Shown piece by piece: positions 5,322 through 38,963 of a stretch of 39,707 nucleotides of DNA; position 1 is the stretch's first letter, and the number at the start of each line of letters is the position of its first letter. The position numbers and the translations under genes were made by a program. Origin of the DNA: Chitinimonas sp. BJB300 (GTDB lineage Bacteria; Pseudomonadota; Gammaproteobacteria; Burkholderiales; Chitinimonadaceae); NCBI RefSeq assembly GCF_002735695.1, contig NZ_PDZH01000034.1, forward strand, positions 1 through 39,707. Direction: 5' to 3'. Under the pieces are notes generated by a model that worked only from the letters and a program-made list of their open reading frames with translations, ran no database searches and was not told where the DNA came from.

Positions 5322-8081
5322 TCACTGCAACCTGTAATGGGTATCCTTGTACTTCAGGTCCAATGCAGCTTCCTTATTGGTGATACAGGCGATCGCTTTC
5401 GGCAGGTCCTTGATACTGTCCGTATAAATGCTTACTTGGTCCGTTGCCCTTGAGATGGCCACATAGAAGTTTTCACGGCTGGTGGTAAGACTTCGGGTGT
5501 TGATATCGACCAGAATGCCGTGTTTCGTCAAGCCCTGTGAACTATGTACGGTACTTACATAGGCATGTTCAGCGTGGAGCGGCTTGCTGCCATCCAGGAT
5601 GATGGCGTGACCATTATCGAGCAGGATGTGGACCTGATCGCCGTCCACCATTTGGACTTTGCCCCGGTCACCATTGGCGATGTCCATGGCGGCATCATTG
5701 CGTGTAATGCGTACCAGGTCTCCGTGTGCTAACTCGATGCGTGATTGCTCGTAAACCGACAATTCGGCATGTTGTCTGGGGTTGATAAGATATTCACGGC
5801 CATCCTCTGAGGTGATGCGCAACTGATTGTGTTTTTCTATTTCCTGGACAATATAGTGTTGTCCCCGCTCCAACCCACTTTGGCGGTAATCACGTTCTGG
5901 CTGGATGACATTGCCCATCCGGAAGTGATGGGCGAGTTTTCGCTGGGCCTGCGTCATGTCTCGACGTCCAAGGGACCTGAAATCCCTGCCATAGCCTTCT
6001 AAACCCAGTTCTACACGTATCGCTTTATTGATGGCGATCCGATCGCTGTTAGTCCCGGTGACGACGAGCGTGTGTTCGCGTTTTTCCTTGGACAAGGAAG
6101 CATAATCCTTGGCAATCCGAGCATGGCGATCTCTCTCGTCTTCTATTTCCTGGACTTCGTTTTTGAGCTTTGCAATGCTCTCGTAAGTCTTTCCAACTGC
6201 CGCAAAATCCACCGCCTCTTTGAACAAGGGATTGTTCCGCTGACGCATGTTTTCTGTCACGAAAGCTGTCTGCATGCCTGCTTCCTGCAGCTGTTCGAAA
6301 GGACGGCCAGCCTCGATGGCCTTGAGTTGCATGACGTCACCCGACAGCACGATTTGGGCTTCATACTTCTCCACGACTTCCAACAAAGCTTCCATCTGAC
6401 GCGCTGGCACCAAGCCAGCCTCGTCAAGCACGATGACCGATTTGTCTGACAGGGTTTTCTTCTCCGAGGCCAGGAAGCTGGCCAAGGTCTTGGCATTCAA
6501 CCCATCCGCCTGTAGCCGCTTTGCCTGGGTAGAATAGGGCGCCAACAGAACAACCTGATAACCCGCCTTTTCGATTTCAGCGGTGGTTTGACGCATCAGA
6601 TGGCTCTTCCCAACGCCAGCAGACCCTTGTATCCCGGTAATCCTATTTCGGGTTGTTAGCACCATGGTTGCAGCAGCACGCTGCCCTTCGTTCATGTCTG
6701 ACTTGCGCAAGCGTTTCTCCGCTTTGGCTGCCGACAGGATGGGCAGCAGCGTGTTCCGGCCCTTGAACTCATGGGCCAGAATACGGCACTCTATTTGTAC
6801 GGCTTTATCTGTCGTGTAGCGGGGTTCGGCCTGGACGAGTGTTCCCTTGGCAATGGCATTCGACACGTATGCTTGCGCTTTTTCTGCTTGCATGGTTTTC
6901 TGCTCAACCAGCCAAGCGACCCATTCATCCTCAGATTTCAGTTCAGGGGTTCTGCGCGCCTCAATGGCCATACTGTATTGCGTTTGCTCTCGTTTAAGCA
7001 CGCCTGCCCGTACCGCTGCTTCGAGCTCCTCGCCGATCTCTACTTGGCTGGTATTGCCTACACCCCGCCGTAGGGCAGTAGTCAGCAACAAACTCTCGGT
7101 CATGATCGCCTGCCTTTCGGTTAAATGCTCAATGGCAAACTGCAGTGCTTCCTGCGCGCCAAGGTGCCTTCCTGCGGGTACATTTTGCATGCCATGCCGA
7201 GGGTCGTCGTAGTTGATCCCAGCTTTGGCACTCATCTCCTTCCAGCTTTGCTGAAGGACCAATCGATCCTCAACGGTCAACTTAACTTTGGCGTGGCGTG
7301 TTGCCAGCGCAATCACTTGCTTCTCCAAGCTACTGGCATCTGCCCGCGTCTTGTTACGCGATTCAAGTACTGCCTCTACCTCATTCGATCTTGTAGAAAA
7401 GACCTTCAGTTGGTCACGTGAAATGTGCGCGAGCTCAAAACCTCCTTCGGCATCAGTAGCTCGCAGCTGATAACCCATGGCGGTCAGCTTCACAGCCAAG
7501 GCTGACCGGTACATGGCGCCCATCACCTTGATGTTGTTGACCATGAGCTCGTTGGCGATGGCTCGCCATTTGCCATCCTTGCGCTTGGTCATATTGAACA
7601 CAACCATGTGGGAATGCAGCTGCGGGTCCTTCTCCCTGCTTAACTGATGGTCATAGATCGCCATCACCATATTGTTGGTCTTCTCTCGAAGAATTTTCCC
7701 GCTTTGCTTGGTACGCGCGACGACCAGCGTCTCCAAATAATCAGCCACCTCGCATACAGCCTGTCGGTGGGCTTCCAATATCGCGGTATCACCGCCAATC
7801 AACGCCTGCATGCTGACACTCTTGGGAGCAGACAGCGTGAAATCCAGGCCAGGGCGATGCTCGACTGCGCCACCGAGTTTTTTGGGGATACTCTGTCCAT
7901 TGGGTAACTCACCTTCGAGCAGACGTTGTGCAGTTGCCTGGATCACTTCTCCAGATAACCCAAGATCAGCAGCCCCCTTGCCGTACCACTGACCTACGCC
8001 CTCGGCGCTGTAGTAGTCATCCTCACCGGAGTAATAATGGGCCGCCTTCGTCGGATCGATGATATCGCCACAGCTCATCAT
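5322..8081 (-). CDS. mobF: MobF-family conjugative relaxase/helicase (TrwC/TraI-like, 919 aa)
   Basis: This nicks oriT, stays bound to the 5' end of the transferred strand and unwinds DNA. The N-terminal relaxase domain has the catalytic Tyr pairs (Y16-Y17 and Y23-Y24 in HYYSGEDDYYSAEG), the GKGAADLGL motif, DFTLSAPKSVS at about 80-90 and the metal-binding His triad (H145, H156, H158 in QLHSHMVV). The helicase half has Walker A GSAGVGKS (486-493), Walker B VLDEAG (551-556) and a C-terminal STVHSSQGLTKHG motif as in RecD/TraI helicases. Length is close to R388 TrwC (966 aa). The ATG pair at 8081/8078 is preceded by GTGGAAG. It follows the coupling-protein gene by 16 bp, so the two are co-transcribed. 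Confidence 0.95.
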   Translation of the reverse strand: MMSCGDIIDPTKAAHYYSGEDDYYSAEGVGQWYGKGAADLGLSGEVIQATAQRLLEGELPNGQSIPKKLGGAVEHRPGLDFTLSAPKSVSMQALIGGDTAILEAHRQAVCEVADYLETLVVARTKQSGKILREKTNNMVMAIYDHQLSREKDPQLHSHMVVFNMTKRKDGKWRAIANELMVNNIKVMGAMYRSALAVKLTAMGYQLRATDAEGGFELAHISRDQLKVFSTRSNEVEAVLESRNKTRADASSLEKQVIALATRHAKVKLTVEDRLVLQQSWKEMSAKAGINYDDPRHGMQNVPAGRHLGAQEALQFAIEHLTERQAIMTESLLLTTALRRGVGNTSQVEIGEELEAAVRAGVLKREQTQYSMAIEARRTPELKSEDEWVAWLVEQKTMQAEKAQAYVSNAIAKGTLVQAEPRYTTDKAVQIECRILAHEFKGRNTLLPILSAAKAEKRLRKSDMNEGQRAAATMVLTTRNRITGIQGSAGVGKSHLMRQTTAEIEKAGYQVVLLAPYSTQAKRLQADGLNAKTLASFLASEKKTLSDKSVIVLDEAGLVPARQMEALLEVVEKYEAQIVLSGDVMQLKAIEAGRPFEQLQEAGMQTAFVTENMRQRNNPLFKEAVDFAAVGKTYESIAKLKNEVQEIEDERDRHARIAKDYASLSKEKREHTLVVTGTNSDRIAINKAIRVELGLEGYGRDFRSLGRRDMTQAQRKLAHHFRMGNVIQPERDYRQSGLERGQHYIVQEIEKHNQLRITSEDGREYLINPRQHAELSVYEQSRIELAHGDLVRITRNDAAMDIANGDRGKVQMVDGDQVHILLDNGHAIILDGSKPLHAEHAYVSTVHSSQGLTKHGILVDINTRSLTTSRENFYVAISRATDQVSIYTDSIKDLPKAIACITNKEAALDLKYKDTHYRLQ

Positions 8082-8097: not shown

Positions 8098-9663
8098 CTA
8101 ACTGAGTTTGACTGATGGCCTCAGTACCAGCGCCGGTACCCGTTCTGGCAAAGACAACGGCGTGAGCTTGACCCTGGAAATCGGAAACTCGCCAGCAAGT
8201 GCGAGGTAACCTTGCAAATCAGGCAAGCCTTGGATTTCCGAGGGCATCACGATATCGTCCGGTTTCGTATTCTGCGACGATGAACGCCCAGTCCCGCCTT
8301 TTTCAGACTGACTTAGTGTTTCCCGTCGCCGATTCACTTCATGCTGACCGAGCGCCATACTCATGTCCTTCGCGGTCTGGCCGTCTGCACGGGCGCCACC
8401 AAGGACCAGTAGCGAACGAAAAACCGATCGGATGGTTTGGGCTTTTTCCCGCCCGTAGTTGTCGGCAAGCTGTGAAGTCGATTGCACACAGCCGACTATA
8501 CGCAGACCGCGCTTACGACCCTTGGTTGCAGCAGGTTCCAGAGAAGGCAGTGCATCCAGCGATCCCAATTCATCCAGGTCCAGCCAGATTGATCGCTTTT
8601 CATCTTCTGGCAGGCTCAACACCGACGTACAAATGATGTCTGCCCAGGTCGAAATCAGTGGCTTCAACGCCTCTCGCATATCCTCCTGCCAGGTGATCCA
8701 CAGGTTCCCGGCATTGGGGTCTGCCAGCCAATCACGAATGGAGAAGGGTCCCGGTTGCAGATGAAAATGTGGCTTGAGGTGATGTCCGATAATGAAACGG
8801 GCTGATCCAATGGCATCCACGGGTCCACTGAATACCCCTTCTGCGGGCGTCCCCTTCAACCAACCTGCTAAGTCTTCCAATTTCGCTACCGTCAGCCAGT
8901 TATGCATCTCCCGAAAGGAAGGATTGGACGGATTGGTTTGCATGACCTTTAACATGCCGCCTGCCAGCAACTGACGGGCGAATTCATTCCAACGCTGTGA
9001 AGCCGCATCCGGCGAATCGGGAATCACACTGGTCGCATAGCGCTCGCAGTCGTATTCGTTCTGGATTTCATTGAAGATGGACCAGCCCTGGCCACGGACA
9101 TCGAAGGGATTAAGCAGCTTGTCACCAGGCAGCCAGAACTGCGACATCAGCTTGCCATCAGGATCAATCGCTGCAATGCGATCCTTATGTTCAGATCGCT
9201 GTATTTTCTTCGAGCGAAGCAAAACGCCATGCATCAACTCGGTGAGCGCCGTAGATTTACCCGTCCCCACCGCCCCTTGAATCAGCAGGTTCCTGTTCTC
9301 TAAGTGGGTAGGGAAGGGTACATCCGCGACAGTCACTTGCATGTCACCGGGTTCTTTCGTCAGTTTGGCCAATCTTCGCTGCTGCGCCATGGCAGAACCG
9401 CGTAGAAAACGACTGTACGCAGCGCCTTTGAAACCGGTGTTCATGATCAGATCAAGCTGGTTGGCCAACCACCAGCAAACAGGGATAGCTATGGCTGTGG
9501 GTATCCAAAGCCACGGATCATCAGGTGTGATATCGACTGCGTAATTCAATCCAACGAGAAATGGCTGACCGATCTCATACTGCAGTACGACAGCGCCCAG
9601 CCAAATAAAGATTGGCCCACCGAATCGAAGTAACAAACTTAGCCAGGCAAATTCCGAGTTCAT
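8098..9663 (-). CDS. traD: type IV coupling protein (TrwB/TraD family, 521 aa)
   Basis: This hexameric ATPase links the relaxosome to the type IV secretion channel. Two hydrophobic segments near the N-terminus (about 8-30 and 50-65) match the membrane anchor of TrwB-type proteins. Walker A is GAVGTGKST (130-138) and Walker B is in SIWLDLDELGSL. The QSTSQLADNYG motif near residue 395 fits the family. Size matches R388 TrwB (507 aa). Its ATG overlaps the stop of the upstream relaxosome gene by 4 bp (ATGA), indicating translational coupling, and it lies directly before the relaxase gene. Confidence 0.92.
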   Translation of the reverse strand: MNSEFAWLSLLLRFGGPIFIWLGAVVLQYEIGQPFLVGLNYAVDITPDDPWLWIPTAIAIPVCWWLANQLDLIMNTGFKGAAYSRFLRGSAMAQQRRLAKLTKEPGDMQVTVADVPFPTHLENRNLLIQGAVGTGKSTALTELMHGVLLRSKKIQRSEHKDRIAAIDPDGKLMSQFWLPGDKLLNPFDVRGQGWSIFNEIQNEYDCERYATSVIPDSPDAASQRWNEFARQLLAGGMLKVMQTNPSNPSFREMHNWLTVAKLEDLAGWLKGTPAEGVFSGPVDAIGSARFIIGHHLKPHFHLQPGPFSIRDWLADPNAGNLWITWQEDMREALKPLISTWADIICTSVLSLPEDEKRSIWLDLDELGSLDALPSLEPAATKGRKRGLRIVGCVQSTSQLADNYGREKAQTIRSVFRSLLVLGGARADGQTAKDMSMALGQHEVNRRRETLSQSEKGGTGRSSSQNTKPDDIVMPSEIQGLPDLQGYLALAGEFPISRVKLTPLSLPERVPALVLRPSVKLS

Positions 9664-10070
9664 AGATACCCGAACTCCTTCAATACTTCTTGAAAAGTTT
9701 TACGACTTTGGGGCGAGATTGATTTTTTGAACAAGGCTTCATCGAGTGCTTCCCAATCCAATTTGCCGGGTCTGTTTGGGGGTGAGGACTGACTCACTAC
9801 TGGCGCAACAGCAGGTAGCCTTGCCACCTGCTCAATCAATCGTTCCACCTGTTGTGCCGTAGACAGATTGACAATGCCTCTGTTCAACAGACGCAGTTCT
9901 TCTGTCTGTTGATCCAGCCTTTCGTGTAGGGGCAATCTGCCAGGAACGTTTCCGCCAGAGATCAAATACCTTAGATAGTCTGCGTAATGAGTAAACCCTG
10001 CCCTACTCATATCCAGCAAAAAATCATCCTCAACTTGTCCAGACAACCTTAACGAATAAACTTTTGACAT
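9660..10070 (-). CDS. TrwA-like relaxosome accessory / autoregulatory protein (136 aa)
   Basis: Its position and size match TrwA of R388 (121 aa): first gene of a three-gene transfer operon, next to the oriT candidate. The N-terminus (MSKVYSLRLSGQVEDDFLLDM then ADYLRYLISGG) fits a ribbon-helix-helix DNA-binding fold: one strand followed by two helices. The C-terminal half has Pro-rich and helical segments that may mediate oligomerisation. It probably binds the short repeats just upstream, both to repress the operon and to assist the relaxase at oriT; this is by analogy. No clear Shine-Dalgarno precedes the ATG at 10070. Confidence 0.7.
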   Translation of the reverse strand: MSKVYSLRLSGQVEDDFLLDMSRAGFTHYADYLRYLISGGNVPGRLPLHERLDQQTEELRLLNRGIVNLSTAQQVERLIEQVARLPAVAPVVSQSSPPNRPGKLDWEALDEALFKKSISPQSRKTFQEVLKEFGYL

Positions 10071-11425: not shown

Positions 11426-11636
11426 TCTCAGGTTTGCGCCATTGCCTAGTTCAAGTTGTGAAGGAATGTACGAGTGAAGCCAGAGTGGGAATAGGCACAA
11501 GCGTTTGCGTAGTTGCCACTAGTCACCGAGGCTGAGTTGGTGGAAGCAAAGTAGGAGACCCACATAGCACTATCGCTACATGCCATCTACGGGTGGATCC
11601 AACTGTGTGTCGCCCGCATGGTTTGTGCTGCCCGCC
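11426..11636. other. non-coding stretch before the palindrome array
   Basis: About 210 bp with no gene, no long repeat and no terminator that I can see. Open frames entering it come from the palindrome array and lack start context. Confidence 0.4.
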
Positions 11637-12854
11637 ATTTTCCCATGGGAAAATTTCCAGACCGTCATCCCGACACAGAGCGTTCGACGATCTTGGTGAG
11701 CAGGTGCTTCACGTATTTTCCCCAACAACCGCTTGTCTATTGATCCAAGCTGCCACTCGATTGCCGGCGGCATCCCGCTGGGCATCGCCAGCCCCGATTG
11801 AGAAGACAGCCATTTTCCCATGGGAAAATCTGCGGCCCCTTTCCGCAAAGTAAGGGGGTTCGATGTTATGGAAATGTGGAAGCACCACGAGCATGCAGCT
11901 CCACGATTTTCCCATGGGAAAATTTTCAGACCATCATCCCGACAGAGAGCATTCGATGATCTTGGTGAGCAGGTGCTTCACGTATTTTCCCCAACAACCG
12001 CTTGCCTATTGATCCAAGCTGCCATTCGATTGCCGGCGGCATCCCGCTGGACATCGCCAGCCCCGATTGAATAGACAGCCATTTTCCCAAGGGAAAATCT
12101 TCATCCCCTTTCCTCAAAGCAAGGAGGTTCGATGTTATGGAAATGCGGACACTTCACGAGCGTGTAGCCCGACGATTTATCCATGGGAAAATTATTAGAT
12201 GGCTCCAGTTAGAAGAGGACAACGATCTTGGTACGGAGAGGCTTCACCACGTGTACCTAACAGTTGCAGACTCGTTGAGCCACGCGCTCACTTGTTTGCC
12301 AGCTGATCCCGTAGGACGCCACCCGCCACGTTCGGGCACCCCGCCATTTTCCCATGGGAAAATCTTCAACCCCTTTCCTCAAAGCAAGGGGGTTCGATGG
12401 TCTGGAAATGCGGAAGCACCACGAGCATGTAGCCCCACGATTTTCCCATGGGAAAATTTTTAGATGGCTCCAGTTAAAAGGGGACAACGATCTTGGTACG
12501 GAGAGGCTTCACCACGTGTACCTAACAGTTGCAGACTCGTTGAGCCACGCGCTCACTTGTTTGCCAGCTGATCCCGTAGGACGCCACCCGCCACGTTCGG
12601 GCACCCCGCCATTTTCCCATGGGAAAATCTTCATCCCCTTTCCTCAAAGCAAGGGGGTTCGATGGTCTGGAAATGAGGAAGCACCACGAACATGCAGCCC
12701 CACGATTTTCCCATGGGAAAATTTTCAGCCTACGCCATCGACAAGGAAGGGTTTGATGGCCTGGCCAAGTGGATGCATCTACGATTACACAAGGATCCCG
12801 CTGCCGGTTACACGCACCACGTTGGGGTACCCCACCATTTTCCCATGGGAAAAT
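11637..12854. repeat. array of ten 18-bp palindromes with alternating spacing
   Basis: ATTTTCCCATGGGAAAAT, perfectly palindromic, starts at 11637, 11812, 11906, 12346, 12440, 12611, 12705 and 12837. Variants start at 12081 (centre CCCAAGGG) and 12175 (ATTTATCC left arm). Start-to-start distances are 175, 94, 175, 94, 171, 94, 171, 94 and 132 bp. Composite units of 269 bp (twice) and 265 bp (twice) are therefore tandemly repeated. Spacers are homologous, not unique; nearly all carry a core like TTCGAYGRTCTKG 28-30 bp after the preceding palindrome. Unit lengths are not multiples of three, so the array is not a protein repeat. The palindrome resembles ParB/Noc-type sites in size and symmetry. 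Confidence 0.9.
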
Positions 12855-12874: not shown

Positions 12875-13303
12875 TTAAACCCGATGCTGGGTTGTCCGTA
12901 GGAAGGGTAAATCGGCCAGCGGCTTGTCGAAGTGCATCCTCACACTGGTACTTTGCTGCCGTTCCAATAACCGATAACGTTGGATTTGCGTCTCCAACTC
13001 GTGCCAAAGCCGACCGATCTCACCGCGGACCACATTGCTGTAGAGCGGTACTGGCATGTCTTCCAGCATGCTTTCTAACTCAATCACGAGTTTATTCAGT
13101 TGCCACAGCAGATCCAGGCCGGCCTCGCATCGCCCTACCTGCTCTCGTGTTGGGCGATACATCCTTGGTGGTTCCCAGGCAGGCGTCACGGGTTCCGGTG
13201 CTACGGCCTTAGCGCGTAGCTCCAACATGGTCAGAATGTGCGCACAGGTCGACTTTGCGACTGCTTGGCCCACACGCTTGTGTTCAACAGTATGTTGTTG
13301 CAT
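12875..13303 (-). CDS. hypothetical protein (142 aa)
   Basis: Unrecognised, but well supported as a gene: ATG at 13303 is preceded by GAGAGGAGCGCGTG, a strong ribosome site. The product is mostly helical (ILTMLELRAKAV, LDLLWQLNKLVIELESMLEDM, GEIGRLWHELETQIQRYRLLERQQ) with one Pro-rich linker and no membrane segment. Its start overlaps the end of the small leader frame at 13284-13493, implying translational coupling. Its 3' end abuts the palindrome array. Confidence 0.65.
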   Translation of the reverse strand: MQQHTVEHKRVGQAVAKSTCAHILTMLELRAKAVAPEPVTPAWEPPRMYRPTREQVGRCEAGLDLLWQLNKLVIELESMLEDMPVPLYSNVVRGEIGRLWHELETQIQRYRLLERQQSTSVRMHFDKPLADLPFLRTTQHRV

Positions 13304-13493
13304 CACGCGCTCCTCTCACCCTACTTGGTACCCTACCTGTTGCATTTGGTTGCGATAACGAAAGGCAGTGCCACGTCCACGCTCGCGAGCGCCTGCTCAG
13401 CGTGGCAACCCATCCTCTTGCTGGTGGGTGAGCCTCTGGGGTACAGGGGCAACGCCCCGTGGTGTTACTGCGCTGGTGGTGCTTGGTGATCAT
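13284..13493 (-). CDS. small ORF with the conserved proline-rich leader (69 aa)
   Basis: From the ATG at 13493 (AAAGGACACTTCC upstream, a good ribosome site) the frame reads MITKHHQRSNTTGRCPCTPEAHPPARGW. Its DNA aligns with the first ~30 codons of the genes at 34280 and 35808: all three show a short GC hairpin (here GGGGC-GTT-GCCCC) followed by CCCCAGAGGCTCACC or a close variant. The rest is basic and unrecognised. It overlaps the start of the next gene by 20 nt and may act as a translated leader for it rather than as a functional protein. Confidence 0.45.
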   Translation of the reverse strand: MITKHHQRSNTTGRCPCTPEAHPPARGWVATLSRRSRAWTWHCLSLSQPNATGRVPSRVRGARDATTYC

Positions 13494-13511
13494 GGAAGTG
13501 TCCTTTCTCTT

Positions 13512-13725
13512 TGTCCTGTCTACCTGCTGGTTGGAGCCGCCTCGGCGCATGAGAAGTGGCAACCGAAGAGAGGGGATGGGCGAGACCGGAGGCCGCAGTG
13601 GAGCGGAACCACAGGTGAGCACCGAACGGGAGAGGATCACGGCGAAGCGAACGCTTCCCCTGTCCGCAGTTGTCGCTATGCGTCGGGAAGAGGCGGGCCA
13701 ACGAGCTGGTAGACGTGCCAGGACA
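13512..13725 (-). ncRNA. structured leader element, copy 1 (diverged)
   Basis: Nested stems: TGTCCTG/CAGGACA (13512-13518/13719-13725), GTCTACC/GGTAGAC (13518-13524/13708-13714; G13518 can pair in only one of these two stems), CCGCCTC/GAGGCGG (13537-13543/13690-13696) and GGCGCAT/ATGCGTC (13544-13550/13678-13684). The core contains GAGCACCGAACGGG. The CCGCCTC stem and the core match the copies near 34.4 and 35.9 kb. The neighbouring stems differ in sequence but stay paired (GTCTACC/GGTAGAC here against CTGCTCT/AGAGCAG there). It is upstream of a minus-strand gene, so it would be a 5' untranslated leader if transcribed with it. Strand is inferred from that position. Confidence 0.55.
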
Positions 13726-13799
13726 GGAAACACTGCCGAGCACACGGCATGGTTACCAGGCAGTCATTTCACGGCGTACTCGCAGGACTGAGTAAGGAA

Positions 13800-13950
13800 T
13801 GCGAATGTGCGGTTTGACACCCAACGCTACAGGCGCGACGCGGTAGCCGAGCGCAGCGAGGGAAAGATTGAAGCCCGAAGGGGCGAGACACGGCGTAGCC
13901 GGGGCTCGACGCGCAGCGCGAAAGCTCGACCCGACCAGGGGGAGGGGACC
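13800..13950. other. GC-rich non-coding region with short hairpins
   Basis: Short complementary runs such as GCCCGAAGGGGC, ACGGCGTAGCCG and GACGCGCAGCGCG are packed here. Open frames exist on both strands but show no start context or recognisable content. Such DNA is common between plasmid backbone modules. Function unknown. Confidence 0.4.
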
Positions 13951-30637: not shown

Positions 30638-32620
30638 TCAGATTGGCTGCTTCAGCATTTCAGGCAGCCAGTTTTTACCGGCCAGTTCCACCTCGGCAGC
30701 TTTGACCAGATCGGATTTTTTGCCAATTGCACTAAGGCGGGGCAGGGAGGCCGGCACGACCTCGGCGATGACGCTGAGAATGCGTTCACGTGAAACCTTG
30801 CTCAGATAATTGCTCCCGGTGACTTGCCACCATTCGGCCATGTCGCACGATGTTGCATCGGCAATGGCATCGGCGAGCGGCAAACGAATTTCGCGATCCT
30901 GCACTGCATTCAATGCCCCACTCGTTGCAAATGCCAGCAGTTCAACCAGGTCAGATTGCGGTTGTATCGCCAGCCAAGCAAACAGATCTTCCACCTCCGG
31001 CGGCAGCATTTCACGCCACTTTGCTTCTTCCGCATTGAGGAAGGCAAACGCCAGACTGTCTTCGATATCCGCTGCCTGTGCCTTGAGATAGGGAACGGTC
31101 AAACCGACGTGGAATGGTCCCGCTTCGAAGTGAGGATAAAACCGGCGCGCCACAAATTGATGCACAACGGCGACCAACGCCACTTCAGGCCGTTTAGTCA
31201 GTGATGCTTGCAGGGCTGCTGTACGATGGGCAGTCAGCGAAAGGGTCAGCTGCTTGTTGTGTACGGCCTTAGTTTTTACCGTGGCTTCTCCGGTCGAGTC
31301 ATTTTCACTTACTTGATCGGGCTCCGTTCGGGCGATCTTGACCCCATCATCATCGATTCGCTCACCTTCGCGTAGCTGGTCACGGCGCACTTCAAGGTTC
31401 CCTGAATAATCAAGTCCGATCACAACACCCAACTGTGCTTTGTCGTGCTCGATCTCTAGCTTTGCCTGCAAGTCGGAAAGCCGTTGTTCTGCCTGTTCCA
31501 GTTGCGCATACCAACCCCCTTGGTCATCCAATGCCTCTCTTTTGGCCATCACTTCGCCTTCGTCAAAGTCATCCTCGCAATCCTCCAATTCGGCATCAAG
31601 TTCATCGATACGCTGGCGAAGTGCTGAAGCAACGTCAGACTGCGCATCGATTTCGGCCTGTTCATCCGAGGATGCCTCACGATATCGACTAGGTGCAGTG
31701 CGATAACTTTGCATGCTGCGATAGTTCAAGTCGGGCACTGCTTCAACCCACGCCCACCCTTCCTCCTTTATCTTTTCGGCGATTTGGGTCAATTTCCGAT
31801 TTGCTAGGGCTTCCAGCAAAGCCGCGTCTTTGTAATACACAACATCGGAAAACAGGTCTTCGCGGATACTGCCACCTCCCGCCACATACTCTTCGGGATT
31901 GACGAAACGGCCATATCGGCTTTGATTCGTTACCTCGCCGGCCGTGATCCGTTGGCGGATGGAGGCCGCAGTACGGTTCCAATTTTGGGTGCTGTCCCAA
32001 ATGCCTTCCTGGACGACATGGTCGTCGGTCAAGGTAAACGCCATCAGAATTTCAAGGTCGATTTCATCGCGTTCACACATTGCGACCAGACGGGGCGAGA
32101 CCTTGGCTAATTCAAGTCGACGCTCCACCACTTTTGGCGTCACCCCATAATTTGCAGCCACGGTTTCAATGCTTTTGCCGGCATTTATTTGGCTGGCAAA
32201 CGCCTTGAACTGCTCTACAGGGTGCATTGCCATGCGACCGTGGTTTTCTGCAAGCGACAATTGCTCCGCCTGCGCTTCGTCCACGATCAGCACCGGCACT
32301 TCAAAATCAGCGGGCATTTTTCCCATGCTGACCAGCCATTGACAGGCACGCATACGGCGACCACCTGCCACGACGCCATACTTGCCCGTCGCCTTGCCTT
32401 TCTTATCCCGATGCACAACGACAACCAAGGTATTCAGTACTGCGCCAACCGAGTAGATCAACGCCACTAATTCGCTGAGATCGGTTTCTTTCGTGCGGAC
32501 ATTGTAGCGAGAGATTTCCAGCGCACTTACCGGCACGCTACGGCGCTCGCCGATGAGCGCAGTGATCGGGTCTTTGCCTGCAAGCATGGCGGCAACAATG
32601 GGATTCAGGGGTGCATTCAT
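30638..32620 (-). CDS. large ParB/RepB/Spo0J-family protein (660 aa)
   Basis: The N-terminal ParB domain has VPVSALEISRYNVR, the box GGRRMRACQWL, and LSLAENHGRMAMHPVEQFKA, followed by the HTH segment SIETVAANYGVTPKVVERRL. Residues about 320-400 form an acidic coiled coil (ELDAELEDCEDDFDEGEV), and the C-terminal ~200 residues are a helical domain seen in plasmid/ICE ParB proteins of this size. The DNA target is not known. The start at 32620 is supported by GGAGAAAATG; an ATG one codon earlier or a TTG at 32632 are alternatives. It lies between methylase-like and PAPS-reductase-like genes in one direction. No ParA is present. Confidence 0.85.
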   Translation of the reverse strand: MNAPLNPIVAAMLAGKDPITALIGERRSVPVSALEISRYNVRTKETDLSELVALIYSVGAVLNTLVVVVHRDKKGKATGKYGVVAGGRRMRACQWLVSMGKMPADFEVPVLIVDEAQAEQLSLAENHGRMAMHPVEQFKAFASQINAGKSIETVAANYGVTPKVVERRLELAKVSPRLVAMCERDEIDLEILMAFTLTDDHVVQEGIWDSTQNWNRTAASIRQRITAGEVTNQSRYGRFVNPEEYVAGGGSIREDLFSDVVYYKDAALLEALANRKLTQIAEKIKEEGWAWVEAVPDLNYRSMQSYRTAPSRYREASSDEQAEIDAQSDVASALRQRIDELDAELEDCEDDFDEGEVMAKREALDDQGGWYAQLEQAEQRLSDLQAKLEIEHDKAQLGVVIGLDYSGNLEVRRDQLREGERIDDDGVKIARTEPDQVSENDSTGEATVKTKAVHNKQLTLSLTAHRTAALQASLTKRPEVALVAVVHQFVARRFYPHFEAGPFHVGLTVPYLKAQAADIEDSLAFAFLNAEEAKWREMLPPEVEDLFAWLAIQPQSDLVELLAFATSGALNAVQDREIRLPLADAIADATSCDMAEWWQVTGSNYLSKVSRERILSVIAEVVPASLPRLSAIGKKSDLVKAAEVELAGKNWLPEMLKQPI

Positions 32621-32653
32621 CATTTTCTCCAAGAAGTAAGGGTATCCATCAAT

Positions 32654-32698: not shown

Positions 32699-33556
32699 TC
32701 ATTGGTTGCTATCTAATGGGTCTTCGAACAAGCTCAATTGCGCAGCTTGTGAATCGGTCTTGATGACATCGATTGCCGATCGGCATTCAGTCGGGGTCAC
32801 GGTCGTATGGGGTTCGACGGATGACGGTTGCGAACAGAGATCGGTGAACGCGTCGACAAACCAGCGGATTTTTAGCTTTTCTTCCCATTTACCCAGTACA
32901 TGGGCAGGGGTAAACCAATGGCTGTAGGTTTGAGCTTCAGGACAAAGGGCATTGCCGTGAGTGACGATGGCCGGCACATGGAGCAACGCGAGCTGGATGT
33001 AGGCCATGTGACAAGCCCGCTTATCCAGGTCCGTAGCGGTAACGTGAAGCTGCTGTTGGTAGTTGATGCCATGTTTCTGTAGTACATCGGCAGTGGCGAT
33101 GACCATGCCACCCGCGCCTACACACGGTTCGTATAACCGTACAAACCCTTGTTGCTTGATCTGTTCAGCCACATCCCCATAGGTCATCATTGCCATGAGG
33201 TACGATATTTCGTAGGGGGTAAAAAACTGGCCTTTCCAACTGTCTCCCAACCCCAATTGCATGAACAAGGAACCCAGCACATCACTGAATCCGGTTTCCA
33301 GTTCCAAGACGACATGCGCCAACATCTCTGGAAAACGGTTCAATTCGTCGGTGTTGTAACGCTTTGCAATGTCGAGATAGCGGGCTTCTCGCTCATCGCG
33401 CCGCGTCCGGTCTACGGCATTGCTGATGCTGATCGCGGACATTTCGCAAAAATCACTGAACACGTCATGCATGTTGTGCTTCTGTGCGTTCTGCTTCACC
33501 AGATTGGCAAAGGCTTGTTTGTGCTCACTGCCGGTTACTCTGTTGCGCTTACCCAT
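32699..33556 (-). CDS. N6-adenine methylase-like protein lacking a visible NPPY motif (285 aa)
   Basis: GDSWKGQFFTPYEISYLMA is the FTP-type entry of N6 methylases, LYEPCVGAGGMVIA is the AdoMet-binding motif I, and VTATDLDKRACHMAYIQLAL is the acidic loop with its following helix. The catalytic NPP[FY] motif should follow, but the sequence goes on as GNALCPEAQTYSHWFTPAHV and contains none. It may be a non-catalytic AdoMet-binding protein, as in several ICE-borne relatives. The N-terminal 95 residues are helical. It sits upstream of, and in line with, the large ParB gene. Confidence 0.75.
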   Translation of the reverse strand: MGKRNRVTGSEHKQAFANLVKQNAQKHNMHDVFSDFCEMSAISISNAVDRTRRDEREARYLDIAKRYNTDELNRFPEMLAHVVLELETGFSDVLGSLFMQLGLGDSWKGQFFTPYEISYLMAMMTYGDVAEQIKQQGFVRLYEPCVGAGGMVIATADVLQKHGINYQQQLHVTATDLDKRACHMAYIQLALLHVPAIVTHGNALCPEAQTYSHWFTPAHVLGKWEEKLKIRWFVDAFTDLCSQPSSVEPHTTVTPTECRSAIDVIKTDSQAAQLSLFEDPLDSNQ

Positions 33557-33623: not shown

Positions 33624-34280
33624 TTAGTACTCTTCAGGTAAGAACAACGTGGTAACGCTGCGGTCCGCTTCGGTGATCACCCACACTCGGGGTGCACTTC
33701 GGCGGTGGTCATCGGTCAGGTAGTAGGCACTGAAAATTCGGCCACCAAGTTTTATGCTGTCGACGTTCATCTGGGCGTCTTCAGCGGGTAATTCTGACCA
33801 GTCGCCCAAGCGGTGGCGCTCGATGAAATCCGTAGCGTTAAGACCGTGTTCGGCCAACAGATCGAGCGCAGCAGGTGTAGCCAACACTTGACCAAGCGGG
33901 AACAGGGATATGCGGGGACAGAAGGGCAGCGATACGTCGGATATAACGTCGATATCCATATAAAATTCGCCGTCGTCCAAGCGGTGTGCATCACAGCCGA
34001 AGTAGGCCTGGATGCCCTCCATCAATATGATGGTCTGCCCAACCAACACGGGGTCAGACCAGCCACTCAGACGGTCTAGCAGGTCAGACAGGCTGAAGCC
34101 TGCGAGCGACAAAGCTTTCAATGCCGCGAAGGAGATATAAACCCGTCCTGATAGATAGTGCTTTTTCAGTTCAGATTTGGGGATTTCCACCCACCCTGCT
34201 CGATGGTGAGCCTCGGGGGGTGCGGGGGGAACGCCCGCGTTGTTGGTGTCAATGCTGGGCTGGGTGTTCTTTGCGTTCAT
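33624..34280 (-). CDS. plasmid-related protein with shared N-terminal leader (218 aa)
   Basis: From the ATG at 34280 (AAGGAAGG upstream, 8 bp away) the first ~28 residues, NTQPSIDTNNAGVPPAPPEA and flanks, match the leader of the gene at 35808 but not the rest of that protein. The body ends LLAEHGLNATDFIERHRLGD then NVDSIKLGGRIFSAY and ITEADRSVTTLFLPEEY, a pattern I recall from widespread plasmid/ICE proteins of unknown role (RH..GDW......N...l..G.RilSaY.....vWvITEADRS.TT.LlP..Y). An in-frame extension to 34433 runs through the structured leader and is not credible. Confidence 0.75.
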   Translation of the reverse strand: MNAKNTQPSIDTNNAGVPPAPPEAHHRAGWVEIPKSELKKHYLSGRVYISFAALKALSLAGFSLSDLLDRLSGWSDPVLVGQTIILMEGIQAYFGCDAHRLDDGEFYMDIDVISDVSLPFCPRISLFPLGQVLATPAALDLLAEHGLNATDFIERHRLGDWSELPAEDAQMNVDSIKLGGRIFSAYYLTDDHRRSAPRVWVITEADRSVTTLFLPEEY

Positions 34281-34564
34281 AGTGGGTGCCTTCCTTTTCG
34301 TTAAGTTGTTTCTGCTCTTTGGAGCCGCCTCGACGTGTGCAAAGCGAGCGCTGCCAAGGCAGCAAGGGCACGAAAGGAAGCCGCATGCGGCGCGCAGCCG
34401 AAGGCGAGCACCGAACGGGTGAGGGCGTGGCAAAGCGAATCCTTGCTGCCTTGGTGGCGTGAGCTACACGTCGAAAAGAGGCGGCCCGGAGAGCAGGAAA
34501 AACGGGGGATGAACGAAAGGCGTGATAGAGCGCAAAGAAAGGTTTCCCAGCCCAGCATTGACAC
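34246..34564 (-). ncRNA. structured leader element, copy 2 (~319 nt)
   Basis: Closed by a perfect 19-bp inverted repeat: 34246-34264 pairs with CCCAGCCCAGCATTGACAC at 34546-34564. Inside are CTGCTCT/AGAGCAG (34312-34318/34490-34496), CCGCCTC/GAGGCGG (34325-34331/34478-34484), GACGTGT/ACACGTC (34332-34338/34466-34472) and a perfect 14-bp stem CCAAGGCAGCAAGG (34354-34367) with 34441-34454. The core has GCCGCATGCGGC and CACC-GAAC-GGGTG. The gene start (34280) and ribosome site lie within the outer stem. On the minus strand it would be the 5' leader of the gene ending at 33624. Confidence 0.65.
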
Positions 34565-34904
34565 AGGGCGGGGCCACCAGCCCCGCCAGGCGATGGTCGC
34601 CGCGCCACAGCGACTGCTCGCGATTCGACCGGGAAGGGCGAATTGCCCAACTACGGGGTGAATTGTGGACCGCTATTTGGTTGGTCAGCGAAGCTGGGCC
34701 GCTAAACCCCGCCAGGATGGCGGTATACGAAGATGGACAGGGTGATGCGGGCAGTTGCCTAGCAACCGAAGACGGTAGTGCGAAACGATCGGACAATGGC
34801 CGACGCGCATTGGCCGTATTCTGTTTTCTTTGAATTGTAGAAGTTCAGACTTGATCTGACAGTCTCACCTTGCAAATGGTGGGATTACCCTGGGTAGCCG
34901 GAAG

Positions 34905-34937
34905 AGAAAAGCCTGCCGATCAAGGATCGTGCAGGCT
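34905..34937 (-). terminator. intrinsic terminator of the frameshifted gene
   Basis: AGCCTGC-CGATC-AAG-GATCG-T-GCAGGCT (34910-34937), followed on the minus strand by TTTTCTC. It begins 9 bp after the last gene of this unit (stop at 34946), so the unit starting near 35808 ends here and the gene at 34280 needs its own promoter. Confidence 0.7.
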
Positions 34938-34945
34938 GCGGTTAA

Positions 34946-35808
34946 TTACTTGCTGGTCATATCCGAAGTAACAGCGCTTGAATCAACGCGCACTGTCGCT
35001 GCTTTCAAGAGCCCACCGAGTTCAGTGTACTTAAGCCAACGATCTGCCGAAGGTAGCGCACCAACCACCTCTCCAACTTCGGTTTCACCTGGCCAGACCT
35101 CGATGGTTTCGCCTTTCAGGATTGCCTGTTGCAAGTACAAAATGTCCGACAGTGTATTAACGCCGTAATGATCGGCAATGCCCCGTAATGACTCTACTGA
35201 GGCAGTCAACTCCTCAAAGAACAGTCGTGCACCCTCGGGGTCAGCGATGCATTGCACTGGCGGTTTCAACACAACGAGGTCGGGGGCCAATCCGAAAGGG
35301 ATACCAAAATGTGCCGCAAGTTCAGTGACAGACTGGTTTTCGCACTCAATTGCGACATCAGTAGTTTCCCGTAAGCGCGGAAGAAGAAGTCATCTTTGGT
35401 TACGACAAGCACATTGCAATCCGTTCTCACTGAATTTTCGTCACCTGCTGCTATAGCTTCTTCCGGGTAGCACTGTGGGTCATGCTGAAAATATTCAACT
35501 CGATAATCGAAGCGTTCGACCATGTAGATGTCGTTGGCCTTTACCAATTCGGCCAACCTGACTATTTCCCGTGCACATGACGCAGTGATTTTAAAGACCG
35601 CCATGCTTGGCTCAACATCCAAATACTCGCCACCGTACACCTCGACGCGGTAGCACTTAGTTTCCCGGATTTTCGCTTGGCCATCAAAGCGAGTTCTATT
35701 TGGTGCTTGTTGTAGACCGTCTGCTAGATGGCGAGTCTCTGGGGGGGTGGGGGAAACCCCCCCGGTGTCGGTGGCAATGGTGGGCTGGGTGTTTGTTGGG
35801 TTCATCAT
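34946..35808 (-). pseudogene. leader-bearing hypothetical gene with a frameshift
   Basis: The upstream part (from ATG 35808, AAGGAAGGCTTAA before it) begins MMNPTNTQPTIATDTGGVSP, the shared leader, and continues as a soluble protein to VVTKDDFFFRA near 35390. There the frame diverges into 30 residues of poor composition and stops at 35266. A second frame continues the sense: LRETTDVAIECENQSVTELA then AHFGIPFGLAPDLVV, running to a stop at 34946. One missing base near 35385 (GC-TTACGG) would unite them into about 286 residues. The second part has no ATG at its head, so a broken single gene (or a sequencing error) is the best reading. Function unknown. Confidence 0.65.
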
Positions 35809-36087
35809 TTAAGCCTTCCTTTTCGTTAAGTTGAATCTGCGCTTTGGCGCCGCCTCGACGTGTGTCAAGCAAGCGGCGCCAGGGCAGCAAGGGCACGAAA
35901 GGAAGCCGCATGCGGCGCGCAGCCGAAGGCGAGCATCGAAAGGGTGAGGGAGTGGCGAAGCGGACCCTTGCTGGTCTGGTGACGTGAGCTACACGTCGAA
36001 AAGAGGCGGGCCGGAGAGCAGAAACAACGGGGATTATCGAAAGGCTTGATCGGGCGCAACGATGGGTTTCTCTGCCCAGCATTGCCA
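35772..36087 (-). ncRNA. structured leader element, copy 3 (~316 nt)
   Basis: Outer stem: TGGCAATG (35772-35779) with CATTGCCA (36080-36087), then a G-G mismatch and TGGGC/GCCCA. Copy 2 has TGTCAATG/CATTGACA at this point, so a T-A pair has become a G-C pair. Inside are CCGCCTC/GAGGCGG (35850-35856/36003-36009) and GACGTGT/ACACGTC (35857-35863/35991-35997); the 14-bp stem of copy 2 keeps 12 pairs here. The core (GCCGCATGCGGC, GAGCATCGAAAGGGTGAGGG) is nearly that of copy 2. The start codon at 35808 lies inside the outer stem. Confidence 0.65.
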
Positions 36088-36169
36088 TAGTGCGGGCCCT
36101 ACGTATAGGTGCATGTCATCCACGATAACAAGGATGAAGAACTGGTTTCGGACCCTTTGGCCAAGCGAC

Positions 36170-36408
36170 TTAAATTCCAGATCGTAGATCGCTATGAGCG
36201 GTTTCATAATCACAAGGAAATCGTTTTGATTCCAATCCGCTCAGTGCGGATCGGCTCGCCAGTATTGCGTTGGCTGCAATCGCCGCAAAGGCATAATGGC
36301 TGTCATACAGGACCGCCTGAACTTGTGCCGATATTACAGGATTGGTATTCGACACAGGTGGCACGGTGGTTACGCTAAGCGCGTGTAATTGTGCAATTGA
36401 AAGATTGT
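36170..36408 (-). pseudogene. 3' part of a gene split by the IS21 element
   Basis: Joined across the insertion (one ATTGT copy removed) to the 5' part at 39057-39248, it gives an uninterrupted 141-residue protein: ...SNMKELNNLSIAQLHALSVT then TVPPVSNTNPVISAQVQAVL and YDSHYAFAAIAANAILASRS to a TAA at 36170. The product is not recognised; the C-terminal part is helical and Ala-rich. The clean join shows that the insertion is what broke this gene. Confidence 0.75.
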
Positions 36409-36642
36409 TGGGTATTCCGGATGACCGTGACCGGTCATTCCGGCGGATCGTGACCGACGATTCCGGTTAATCGTGAACACTGATTCCGGACGACCGTGAC
36501 CGATTTACAGGGTTGACCGGAATGACCGGTCACGACGTCGGAACGGTCGGTCACGAGACCGGAATCGGCGCCTGCAGCGTGTGATGTTGCGCATATTTCC
36601 CTAACCCTCGGGGTAGCCTCGCCAGCTTTGCTGGAAGTAGGC

Positions 36643-38166
36643 ATGCCCGATACCCGAAGGATCAATATGCGCAAGATTCGCGACGTCCTACGTCTCAAAC
36701 TTGAAGCCCGGCTCTCCCATGAGCGAACTGCCGCCGCCCTGCACATCTCCAAAGGCGTTGTCACCAAGTACATCACCCTGGCGAACACCGCCGGTCTCGA
36801 CTGGACGCAAATCCAGACCCTGGACGACACGGCACTACACAACCGACTGCTGGGCACTCCCCAGCGAGCCAGCAGTTTCGTGCAACCCGACTATGGCTGC
36901 ATCCACCAAGCGTTGCGCCGCAAAGGCATGACGTTGATGCTGCTGTGGGAGGAACATGGTGCCCAGCACCCGGATCAGGCCATCCACCGTTACTCTCAGT
37001 TCTGCGAGAATTACCGCCGCTACGCCAAGACCCTCAAACGCTCCATGCGCCAGATCCACCGCGCCGGTGAGAAATTGTTCATCGATTACGCGGGCCCCAC
37101 GATCGCGTTGACAGACGGCAGTCGCGCCCACATCTTTGTCGCCGCATTGGGCGCATCAAGTTACACCTATGCCTGTGCCACACCGCGCGAAACCATGGCC
37201 GATTGGCTGGGTGCCACCGCCCAGGCATTGCGATTCATTGGCGGTGTGCCTCAGCTCATCGTGCCCGACAACCCCAAGGCGTTGATCGCCAATGCAGACC
37301 GGTATGAACCCCGTGCCAATGAAACGGTGCACGACTTTGCACGGCACTACGGCACCTCATTCCTGCCAGCACGCCCGTACCACCCGCAGGACAAAGGCAA
37401 GGTTGAATCCGCCGTGCAGGTGGTGGAACGCTGGATTCTGATGCGACTGCGCCACCAGAAGTTTGCAACGGTCGATGACGTCAACGAAGCCATTGCCCCA
37501 CTCTTGGCACAACTCAATGCCAAAGCGTTTCAGAAGCTGCCGGGCAGCCGCGCCAGTGCGTTTGCCCAATTGGACGCACCCGCATTGCAACCTTTGCCGG
37601 TCCATACCTGGGAGTTGGCGGTTTACAAGACCGTGCGGGTGCATATTGACCAGCACATCGAGTTTGAGGGGCATCGCTACAGCGTGCCGCAGTCGCTGGT
37701 CGGGCAAGTCCTCGAGGCCCGTGTCACGGCACGCGCGGTAGAGGTGCTGCACCGAGGGCAGCGTGTAGCGTCCCACCTGCGCTGTGCGCACAAGGGGGGC
37801 TTCACCACCGTGCCCGAACACCTGTCTGCGGCGCATCGTGCGCATATGGAGTGGACGCCAGAGCGGCTGATCCACTGGGGCAATAGCATTGGCGCGGCCA
37901 CCGGTGCGTTGGTGACGCGTCTACTGGAAACCCGCAAACACCCTGAACACGGCTACCGGGCCTGTCTGGGTTTGTTGGCATTGGCCAAGCGTTTTACCAG
38001 GCCACGGCTGGAGGCCGCCTGTGTGGTGGCACTGGAGCTGGGCACGACCAACAGCACCCATGTACGCGACATTCTGGTCAATGGGCGGGACCAGGTGCAA
38101 CCCACCCAGCCTGAGTGGACCAGTCCGCAGCACGCGCATGTACGCGGCCCCGGTTATTACCAATGA
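36643..38166 (+). CDS. istA: IS21-family transposase IstA (507 aa)
   Basis: An N-terminal HTH (MRKIRDVLRLKLEARLSHERTAAALH... in part) is followed by an rve/DDE integrase core: first Asp in KLFIDYAGP, second Asp in LIVPDNPKALI, and Glu in DKGKVESAVQVVERWIL. The C-terminal Mu-like domain includes DQHIEFEGHRYSVPQSLVGQ. I prefer the ATG at 36643 (MPDTRRINMRK); an in-frame ATG at 36628 is possible. The stop overlaps the istB start (ATGA). Confidence 0.93.
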   Translation: MPDTRRINMRKIRDVLRLKLEARLSHERTAAALHISKGVVTKYITLANTAGLDWTQIQTLDDTALHNRLLGTPQRASSFVQPDYGCIHQALRRKGMTLMLLWEEHGAQHPDQAIHRYSQFCENYRRYAKTLKRSMRQIHRAGEKLFIDYAGPTIALTDGSRAHIFVAALGASSYTYACATPRETMADWLGATAQALRFIGGVPQLIVPDNPKALIANADRYEPRANETVHDFARHYGTSFLPARPYHPQDKGKVESAVQVVERWILMRLRHQKFATVDDVNEAIAPLLAQLNAKAFQKLPGSRASAFAQLDAPALQPLPVHTWELAVYKTVRVHIDQHIEFEGHRYSVPQSLVGQVLEARVTARAVEVLHRGQRVASHLRCAHKGGFTTVPEHLSAAHRAHMEWTPERLIHWGNSIGAATGALVTRLLETRKHPEHGYRACLGLLALAKRFTRPRLEAACVVALELGTTNSTHVRDILVNGRDQVQPTQPEWTSPQHAHVRGPGYYQ

Positions 38167-38963
38167 CAACAGCAACCACAGCGACAACAGGCACCCCCAT
38201 GATGATGAATACGACGATTGAACAACTGCGCGGTCTGCGCCTGGCTGGCATGGCCTTGGGATTGGAAGAGCAACTCAGCCAGGCTGGCATGACGGCCATC
38301 AGCTTTGAAGAACGCTTGGCGCTGCTGGTGGACCGTGAAGTCCACTGGCGCAATGACAAACGCCAGACCCGACTACTTAAAGATGCCAAGCTGAAGTACA
38401 ACCAGGCCAGCATTGAGGATTGGGATACCCGTGTCGGGCGCGGTGTGGATCGCAAGGCGGTGATGAGTCTGGCTTTGGGTGACTGGATTGACAGTGGGCA
38501 CAATGTGTTGATCACCGGCCCCACGGGGGCGGGGAAGTCCTGGCTGGCCTGTGCGCTGGCCCAGTACGCCTGTCGGCGGGGGTACTCTGCGTATTACCAA
38601 CGGGTCCCCCGACTGGGTGGGGAACTGCGCATCCGTCATGGCAATGGGACGTTTAGCAAGTGGCTGGTGCAGCTGGCAAGGACGGATGTGTTGCTGCTTG
38701 ATGACTGGGGCATGGCTGGTATTGATCCCCAAACGCGTGCGGACTTGCTGGAGATTATTGATGACAGGGCTGCCAACAAAGCCACCATCATTACCAGTCA
38801 GTTACCGATTGAGCATTGGCATGCCTGGGTGGGCGACGCCACGATTGCGGATGCCATTCTGGACCGCGTGATGCAAAAGAATCACCGTTTCACCCTGACG
38901 GGCGAGTCTCTTCGGCAGAAGCCAAAATCAAGCCAGAAGGAGGTCCATCCAGACCCATCGTGA
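38163..38963 (+). CDS. istB: IS21-family helper ATPase IstB (266 aa)
   Basis: An AAA+ ATPase related to DnaC that selects target DNA for IstA. N-terminal MTTATTATTGTPMMMNTTIE leads to QLRGLRLAGMALGLEEQL; Walker A is GPTGAGKSWL; Walker B is DVLLLDDWGM; sensor region IITSQLPIEHWH. The ATG at 38163 overlaps the istA stop by 4 bp; the longer frame from 38115 is unlikely because it overlaps istA more. Confidence 0.93.
   Translation: MTTATTATTGTPMMMNTTIEQLRGLRLAGMALGLEEQLSQAGMTAISFEERLALLVDREVHWRNDKRQTRLLKDAKLKYNQASIEDWDTRVGRGVDRKAVMSLALGDWIDSGHNVLITGPTGAGKSWLACALAQYACRRGYSAYYQRVPRLGGELRIRHGNGTFSKWLVQLARTDVLLLDDWGMAGIDPQTRADLLEIIDDRAANKATIITSQLPIEHWHAWVGDATIADAILDRVMQKNHRFTLTGESLRQKPKSSQKEVHPDPS

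Follow-up and report, generated by a model that had tools for sequence, protein, structure and literature searches.

Long hairpins at gene starts as probable single-stranded-DNA promoters in the leading region of conjugative plasmids

On a contig of Chitinimonas sp. BJB300 (NZ_PDZH01000034.1, positions 1 to 39,707, the whole stretch analysed and here called the window), a long imperfect hairpin occurs three times, and each time the start codon of a minus-strand gene lies inside it. What would maintain so long a fold around the beginnings of unrelated genes? The hairpin is real and under selection, and its orientation to its gene is nearly constant. We propose that it belongs to a family of Frpo/ssi-type promoters that would work in single-stranded DNA, in the leading region of a conjugative plasmid; judged from sequence, the probability of this reading is roughly 0.84. 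An earlier note on this DNA contained no link to conjugation, which is drawn in the present analysis.

A hairpin family that encloses gene starts

Element 1 (34246..34564) and element 2 (35771..36087) both form their hairpin on the + strand, the presumed transferred strand, and are 86% identical. The earlier note had described a repeated structured element with compensatory changes, each copy preceding a minus-strand gene, with the outer stem in two copies enclosing the gene start, and this description was confirmed: the ATG codons at 34280, 35808 and 13493 all fall within the hairpin of the predicted fold. The diverged third copy proposed there is also real, and only its span of 13512-13725 proved too short; the fold places element 3 at 13479..13743 (+). 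A fourth copy on another contig of the same genome (C57:5570-5888) is 99% identical and sits within a 1.9-kb stretch that is 95% identical to the window. Around element 1 (34230-34580) the + strand folds at -201 kcal/mol with RNA parameters (z -13.2), a value that 0/100 shuffles equalled. A stable stem-loop on the strand that is probably transferred is what an Frpo/ssi promoter would present.

Relatives, mostly beta-proteobacterial, came from BLAST searches of PLSDB, from scanning genome contigs with a pattern and from profile hidden Markov models of both arms; the analysed set comprises 52 elements, including the four of this genome. Copy 1 retrieved 204 PLSDB records, none covering 80% of it, and a Burkholderia glumae element that is without the loop core retrieved 113 (109 Burkholderia, 100 predicted conjugative). 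The pattern scan gave 35 matches in 34 stretches. Of these, 24 pass the hairpin test, one on a contig labelled Gammaproteobacteria and 23 on contigs with beta-proteobacterial labels, which include Burkholderia, Rubrivivax, Aquabacterium, Nitrosomonas, Denitromonas and Zoogloeaceae. Among the 11 rejected matches, ten are probably due to chance, mostly in unrelated taxa, and one, in Azoarcus (L019), lies at a contig end. In all, 48 signature matches yielded 37 core elements that pass the hairpin test, 18 of them non-redundant; neither the -35 box nor the 5' arm was in either search pattern. Within the host's family the signature was present in one of ten genomes searched, the window's own, and there was no match in viral contigs by the pattern scan or in phages by BLAST with one element.

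Selection on the fold, argued in the earlier note from a few matched changes, is supported across the family. In 17 of the 18 non-redundant elements, 35/56 pairs have changes on both sides, and the covariation score is 0.365 compared with 0.169 (sd 0.011) for shuffles, 0/500 of which reach it; with one arm slid the score is at most 0.123. Because the elements were selected by a fold test and are related, these values serve as support and not as a probability. Two irregularities of the stem are as constant as its pairing, each being found in 36/37 folds. On the 3' arm, five unpaired nucleotides (GAAAA, GGAAA, GGGAA and similar) bulge out after TATGCGTC, and four extra nucleotides in the 5' arm sit at the apical edge, opposite the -10 segment.

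Promoter-like boxes, strand and transfer

On the 3' arm a TTG lies exactly 22 nt before a -10-like box in 49/52 elements (34/37 core, 15/18 non-redundant), giving the pattern TTGNNN-16-TANNCG; at any other offset from -40 to -3, TTG occurs at most once among the 18 non-redundant elements. The 16-nt spacer is constant in length, and its sequence shows little conservation (0.12-0.78 bit at each position), except for its last two bases, GC, which are invariant but were part of the search pattern. Such spacers, variable in sequence and fixed in length, look like those of sigma-70 promoters. A -35/-10 pair placed in the stem at promoter spacing, with partial agreement to consensus, would be expected of an Frpo/ssi promoter. 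In element 1 the boxes are TTGCTG (34443..34448) and TACACG (34465..34470; the family's commoner form is TATGCG), and the bulge GAAAA just past the -10-like box (34473..34477) marks the predicted start region. The 5' arm facing the -10 region (34325..34339), the putative template, opposes a G to the first T of the -10 box. Element 2 carries the same boxes and bulge at 35968..35973, 35990..35995 and 35998..36002. Element 3, one of the three elements of the 52 without TTG at the -35 position, has TTCCCC there (13655..13660), with TATGCG at 13677..13682 and the bulge GGGAA at 13685..13689; all of these features are on the + strand.

When the duplex is read towards the gene, along the reverse complement of the 5' arm, the spacer is 20 nt, with TTG 26 nt from the site (31/37), and the base at -12 is other than T in 33/37 elements (C in 31); in the hairpin, the first T of the -10 box pairs with G. 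The box pair would therefore be assembled by folding and be proper only in the folded strand. A sigma-70 consensus scan found no gene-ward duplex match inside the window's elements, and the nearest gene-ward matches upstream of them lie at 34862-34834 and 14224-14195.

The gene start keeps a nearly fixed distance from this site. An ATG or GTG lies about 43-54 nt from the base opposite the bulge, most often at 50 or 51, and in 43/52 elements a start codon at that distance is accompanied by a Shine-Dalgarno-like run; the other nine, of Rubrivivax type, have an ATG at 48-49 by a different anchor. An opposite-strand open reading frame (ORF) with a Shine-Dalgarno sequence follows 49/52 elements, counting those that run off the contig, against 22/52 on the mirrored side, and ORFs of at least 80 aa number 45 against 16.

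Both strand and position are consistent with transfer. The strand resembling the transferred strand (T-like) folds better than the mRNA-like strand in 36/37 elements, although shuffles of copy 1 indicate that base composition accounts for part of this difference. Seventeen annotated replicons were scanned, and nine hold 18 canonical elements. In all eight plasmids with a placeable relaxase, all 14 elements lie on the strand that is probably transferred, beyond the origin of transfer (oriT) and away from the relaxase operon; this would put them in the leading region, ahead of genes for which the transferred strand is the template, as for Frpo/ssi promoters. The oriT was taken, by analogy, to lie 5' of the relaxase operon, except in pBCJ2315, where a functional oriT is reported upstream of ptwA (PMC4853378). 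M.BceJIII, the single-stranded-DNA methyltransferase reported for B. cenocepacia J2315 (PMC7736820), was considered as a direct target and rejected, the two pBCJ2315 elements preceding other genes and not the annotated DNA methyltransferase.

Its gene content places the window in a conjugative plasmid or a related element. The order and strands of its genes for a TrwC-type MOBF relaxase (5322..8081, -) and a TrwB-type TrwB/TraD coupling protein (8098..9663, -) resemble trwA-B-C of R388, in which the leading region is on the opposite side of oriT and the nic motif is on the + strand. That motif was seen in the R388 sequence. Because of this R388-like gene order and strands, we infer that the + strand of the window is transferred and that the leading region extends to the right of about 10 kb. 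The oriT presumably lies beyond the 5' side of the coupling-protein gene, near 10.1-10.4 kb.

We propose that the transferred strand (probably +) enters the recipient single-stranded and that the element folds into its long hairpin. The 3' arm would then be the non-template strand, bearing the -35 (TTGNNN) and -10 (TANNCG, mostly TATGCG) boxes 16 nt apart, and the 5' arm the template. The bulges at the -10 region, 4 nt upstream in the template arm and 5 nt just downstream in the non-template arm, would keep the site partly open. Host RNA polymerase would start near the bulge and copy the 5' arm, then the single-stranded DNA that follows. The leader of the resulting mRNA would be about 50 nt long, and the Shine-Dalgarno sequence and ATG would be free, because the pairing arm is absent from the transcript. 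Synthesis of the second strand would abolish the hairpin, and the promoter would be off, since the duplex has mostly a 20-nt spacer and C for the first T. The genes behind the hairpin would thus be switched on before second-strand synthesis, which the transcript may also prime, as reported for Frpo.

Possible kinship with Frpo and competing explanations

The closest known systems are the Frpo elements of F (Frpo1/Frpo2, ssiD), with which we group ssi2/ssi3 of ColIb-P9; the sequence comparison made here covered F only. As described, Frpo is a hairpin of the leading region, formed on the transferred strand before early genes, and F has two near-identical copies with -35/-10 boxes rebuilt in the stem (PMC9849209, PMC11541004); the present family is alike in these respects. 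Frpo1/Frpo2 are reported to be required for early expression in transconjugants (PMC9849209), and Frpo RNA is also reported to prime (PMC10085688). In contrast to F Frpo, the family described here has its own -10/bulge signature, a gene start within the hairpin and a beta-proteobacterial spread. An 88-nt stretch upstream of F Frpo matches Massilia (79.5%, E 1.6e-13), and shorter parts of it match loci of Burkholderia, Pandoraea and Acidovorax (E 8e-5 to 0.14). A block profile that combines the two F copies with seven of these loci gave 24 hits outside F at E<=1e-3. For 17 of them a hairpin or loop core in the correct orientation lies 148-240 nt gene-ward; the corresponding distance from the end of the F block to the Frpo hairpin is about 180 nt. 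The block thus stands in the same order and orientation beside F Frpo and beside part of this family. Within the window it lies at 13866..13892 (-; E 3.5e-4), and the arm match of element 3 is 152 nt away.

The principle of promoters in single-stranded DNA is known from F, and the hairpin family itself appears to be undescribed. A 2024 survey of leading regions reports thousands of Frpo homologues and candidates found by BLAST and consensus; its Frpo' and Frpo* candidates express the same idea, found by structure and a -35/-10 consensus, and those named are from Enterobacterales and an insect metagenome, with no mention of "Burkholderia" in the main text (PMC11541004). A PromA-like feature has been named without a function (PMC4290620), and pIPO2 holds relatives of the element; as against that feature, the arms, boxes, strand and gene starts are defined here. 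A search of the open PMC literature did not find the family described, with subscription papers and preprints lying outside that search. An older review reportedly describes IncW repeats.

Several observations weigh against the promoter reading. The boxes are weak, with 5-7/12 consensus bases in 50/52 elements, mostly 6-7 (6/12 in the three window copies), and 9/12 in two; the sigma-70 scan mentioned above does not call the 3'-arm boxes either, and as a duplex the 3' arm could drive transcription away from the gene. Twenty-four of the 37 core elements were found by a pattern that fixed the -10 box and bulge; a similar pattern drew the other 13 from the window and fetched loci, and all 37 were selected by a fold test. 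The 52 elements are not independent: they comprise 44 distinct hairpin sequences, and one plasmid is represented twice, as L024 and L049. An ATG or GTG is present by chance in 39% of comparable windows (14-position range). The strand test by stem mismatches, described below, has an uneven baseline. The position count includes related plasmids that are not independent; a Cupriavidus plasmid with four copies gave no decision on the transferred strand and is outside the 14/14 count. No R388-like nic site was found near the window's relaxase operon, and the window's oriT was not located. The Frpo repeats of F, searched by BLAST against all loci, had no match in canonical hairpins. Seven of the 24 block hits are profile seeds (7/7 with hairpin or loop core, compared with 10/17 of the non-seeds), and the block accompanies only 10/52 canonical elements, window copy 3 among them.

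Divergent relatives, and R388 itself, add to these points. Relatives in R388, R7K, pIPO2, JS42 and Massilia keep the long hairpin, the loop core and mostly CCTTG, and the -10/bulge signature is missing from them; a -10 box sought by eye at the same spacing was not identified in R388, pIPO2, JS42 and Massilia. The ardC, orf7 and ssb regions of R388 are reported to hold strong duplex promoters under plasmid repressors such as ArdK, and the burst of expression after transfer is ascribed to negative feedback not yet established (PMC3937220). Such repressed duplex promoters are enough to explain that burst.

Mismatches in the stem were first taken as decisive for the strand on which the hairpin acts and, after controls, are kept only as supporting. 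With the arms aligned strand-neutrally, mismatches on the T-like strand are G.T rather than A.C by 98:15. Among 47 other inverted repeats in the same loci the ratio is 67:29 (Fisher P 0.004 for the difference; 0.016 without the -12 pair). F Frpo, the positive control, gives 5:3 and so no G.T signal, and arm composition predicts 64% G.T. At 0.87 the G.T share falls short of the 0.93 from a letter shuffle, yet the count of 98 exceeds all 5000 shuffles (maximum 83). Ungapped cells, at 105:40, show no excess G.T share.

Among the alternatives, the one that survives best, though we consider it improbable, holds that the element is a single-strand initiation (priming) site only, with the hairpin and its loop core recruiting primase or a primosome for second-strand synthesis and the boxes incidental. 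The weakness of the boxes suits it, as does the reported priming by Frpo RNA (PMC10085688). The loop core is also found without arms: pP33-1 and pAtCFBP6625c have it on both strands, and it occurs on a Salmonella plasmid of 2.6 kb that carries RepL and is typed MOBV. It leaves unexplained, however, the constant 22-nt distance from TTG to the -10 box across a drifting spacer and the near-fixed distance to the start codon. The loop core may have a separate role: loop-core-only matches occur on both strands of pP33-1, pAtCFBP6625c and pIPO2T (loci L006, L007 and L009), and on the Salmonella plasmid (L056, 647-731) the core has a CAAGGG/CCCTTG stem without the promoter signature, making it a candidate single-strand priming site.

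The earlier note had suggested an mRNA leader that hides the Shine-Dalgarno sequence and ATG and so controls translation. The stem does enclose both, and read-through RNA from an upstream duplex promoter would fold in this way (-167 kcal/mol). This view is less well supported now, given that the opposite strand folds better in 36/37 elements and carries the -35/-10-like boxes on its 3' arm; the mismatches also suit the opposite strand, with the G.T caveats above. A comparison with Rfam gave no family at gathering score in the window, and hence none on the element, with only sub-threshold matches in 34100-36300 at E<=5. As the sole function, translation control is thus very unlikely; in addition to the promoter, it could provide an off-state for read-through RNA.

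We give still less credence to an antisense or small RNA that is transcribed from the T-like strand and spans the entire hairpin. Such an RNA would also favour G.U pairs on that strand, but the boxes in the 3' arm would yield an RNA without the hairpin, a rightward ORF is present in only 22/52 elements and the position on the transferred strand is left unexplained. A MITE-like or cassette-like mobile unit, the note's other suggestion, could account for near-identical copies before different genes in one plasmid (Cupriavidus L005 and, similarly, Aquabacterium L040 and the window), which imply that the unit was copied or homogenised, but it too is most improbable, because a freely inserting repeat predicts none of the near-constant orientation, start-codon distance and probable transferred-strand position. 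In the Cupriavidus locus (L005, 18067-24871) four near-identical elements precede different genes, one encoding an antirestriction protein; identity extends over about 480 nt in two pairwise comparisons, beyond the hairpin, and the copies therefore seem homogenised or duplicated.

Coding starts, window genes and wider reach

Behind each window copy is a minus-strand ORF. That of element 1 (218 aa, 33624..34280) has the Shine-Dalgarno sequence AAGGAAGG and its ATG 51 nt from the predicted start region; those of elements 2 and 3 encode 180 aa (35266..35808) and 69 aa (13284..13493). The 218-aa and 180-aa products had no match in Pfam, NCBIfam or PADLOC at E 0.01. Downstream of the 218-aa ORF come genes for an N6-adenine methyltransferase-like protein of 285 aa (32699..33556, -; N6_Mtase 4.2e-8) and a ParB/RepB-like protein of 664 aa (30638..32632, -; below curated cut-offs). 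Across the family, genes directly behind elements include those for an antirestriction protein, DNA cytosine methyltransferases, ParB-like proteins and DUF3560 proteins; at four copies (L005 20172, L040 5448, L030 and L044) the frame from this start is short.

Unrelated proteins begin alike in this family because the base of the hairpin and a further conserved block extend into the coding sequence. The EAH of AGVPPAPPEAHQRAG is present in 32/52 frames. Across the 22 distinct sequences, conservation at third codon positions nearly equals that at the other two, and the annotated gene of Acidovorax JS42 has a related block upstream of it; selection therefore seems to act on the DNA rather than on the N-terminal peptide. 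The putative promoter hairpin is followed directly by a conserved G-rich block with a small hairpin (GAGCCTCGGGGGGTGCGGGGGGAACGCCCGC, loop around GGAAC), which overlies early codons of the ORF and is seen at 34208..34240 (+), at 13430-13460 and in relatives.

A wider reading, which we hold only tentatively and, taken as a whole, at somewhat under even odds, is that the element is a portable zygotic expression cassette. A promoter active only in single-stranded DNA would form one unit with a Shine-Dalgarno sequence, a start codon and a conserved DNA block covering the first ~28 codons, and this unit would spread between leading-region genes, so that methyltransferase, ParB-like, DUF3560 and other proteins would gain a similar N-terminal peptide (AGVPPAPPEAHQRAG) as a by-product of selection on the DNA. 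Together with the upstream block shared with Frpo, this would point to one modular system of single-stranded-DNA control across proteobacterial plasmids, in which the arms as promoter, the loop core as a possible priming site and the upstream block are exchanged as modules.

Single-stranded-DNA promoters are reported as characterised for F and ColIb-P9 (PMC9849209, PMC11541004); for RP4, none had been identified by 2020, according to one account (PMC7314908). If the promoter reading is correct, the principle would extend to plasmids of Burkholderia, Cupriavidus, Caballeronia, Pandoraea, Aquabacterium, Rubrivivax, Nitrosomonas and others, and the natural variants would be numerous enough for the needs of the polymerase on a folded single strand to be read from covariation. 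The elements would also flag the genes, many of them uncharacterised, that may be the first to be expressed from a plasmid, and so direct attention to new establishment and anti-defence genes.

Other features of the window include a small gene (9660-10070) that adjoins the coupling-protein gene, ParB-like genes and type IV pilus-type genes (TcpQ, secretin, PilO, T2SSE and T2SSF matches, some below cut-off). An IS21-type transposase pair (36628-38963) adjoins element 2. Between the relaxase operon and element 3 lies a direct-repeat array (11590-12854) with a spacing of 265/269 nt, most copies bearing the palindrome ATTTTCCCATGGGAAAAT. Upstream of element 1, 34735-34913 (-) matches the Rfam family psRNA2 below threshold (43.1 bits, gathering 65; E 1.4e-8), which may reflect leading-region DNA or a duplex promoter region rather than a small RNA. 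The Rfam family anti-hemB (Burkholderia RNA 7) matches L028 at 5531-5623 (+), about 470 nt upstream of an element, and may likewise overlap a leading-region block.

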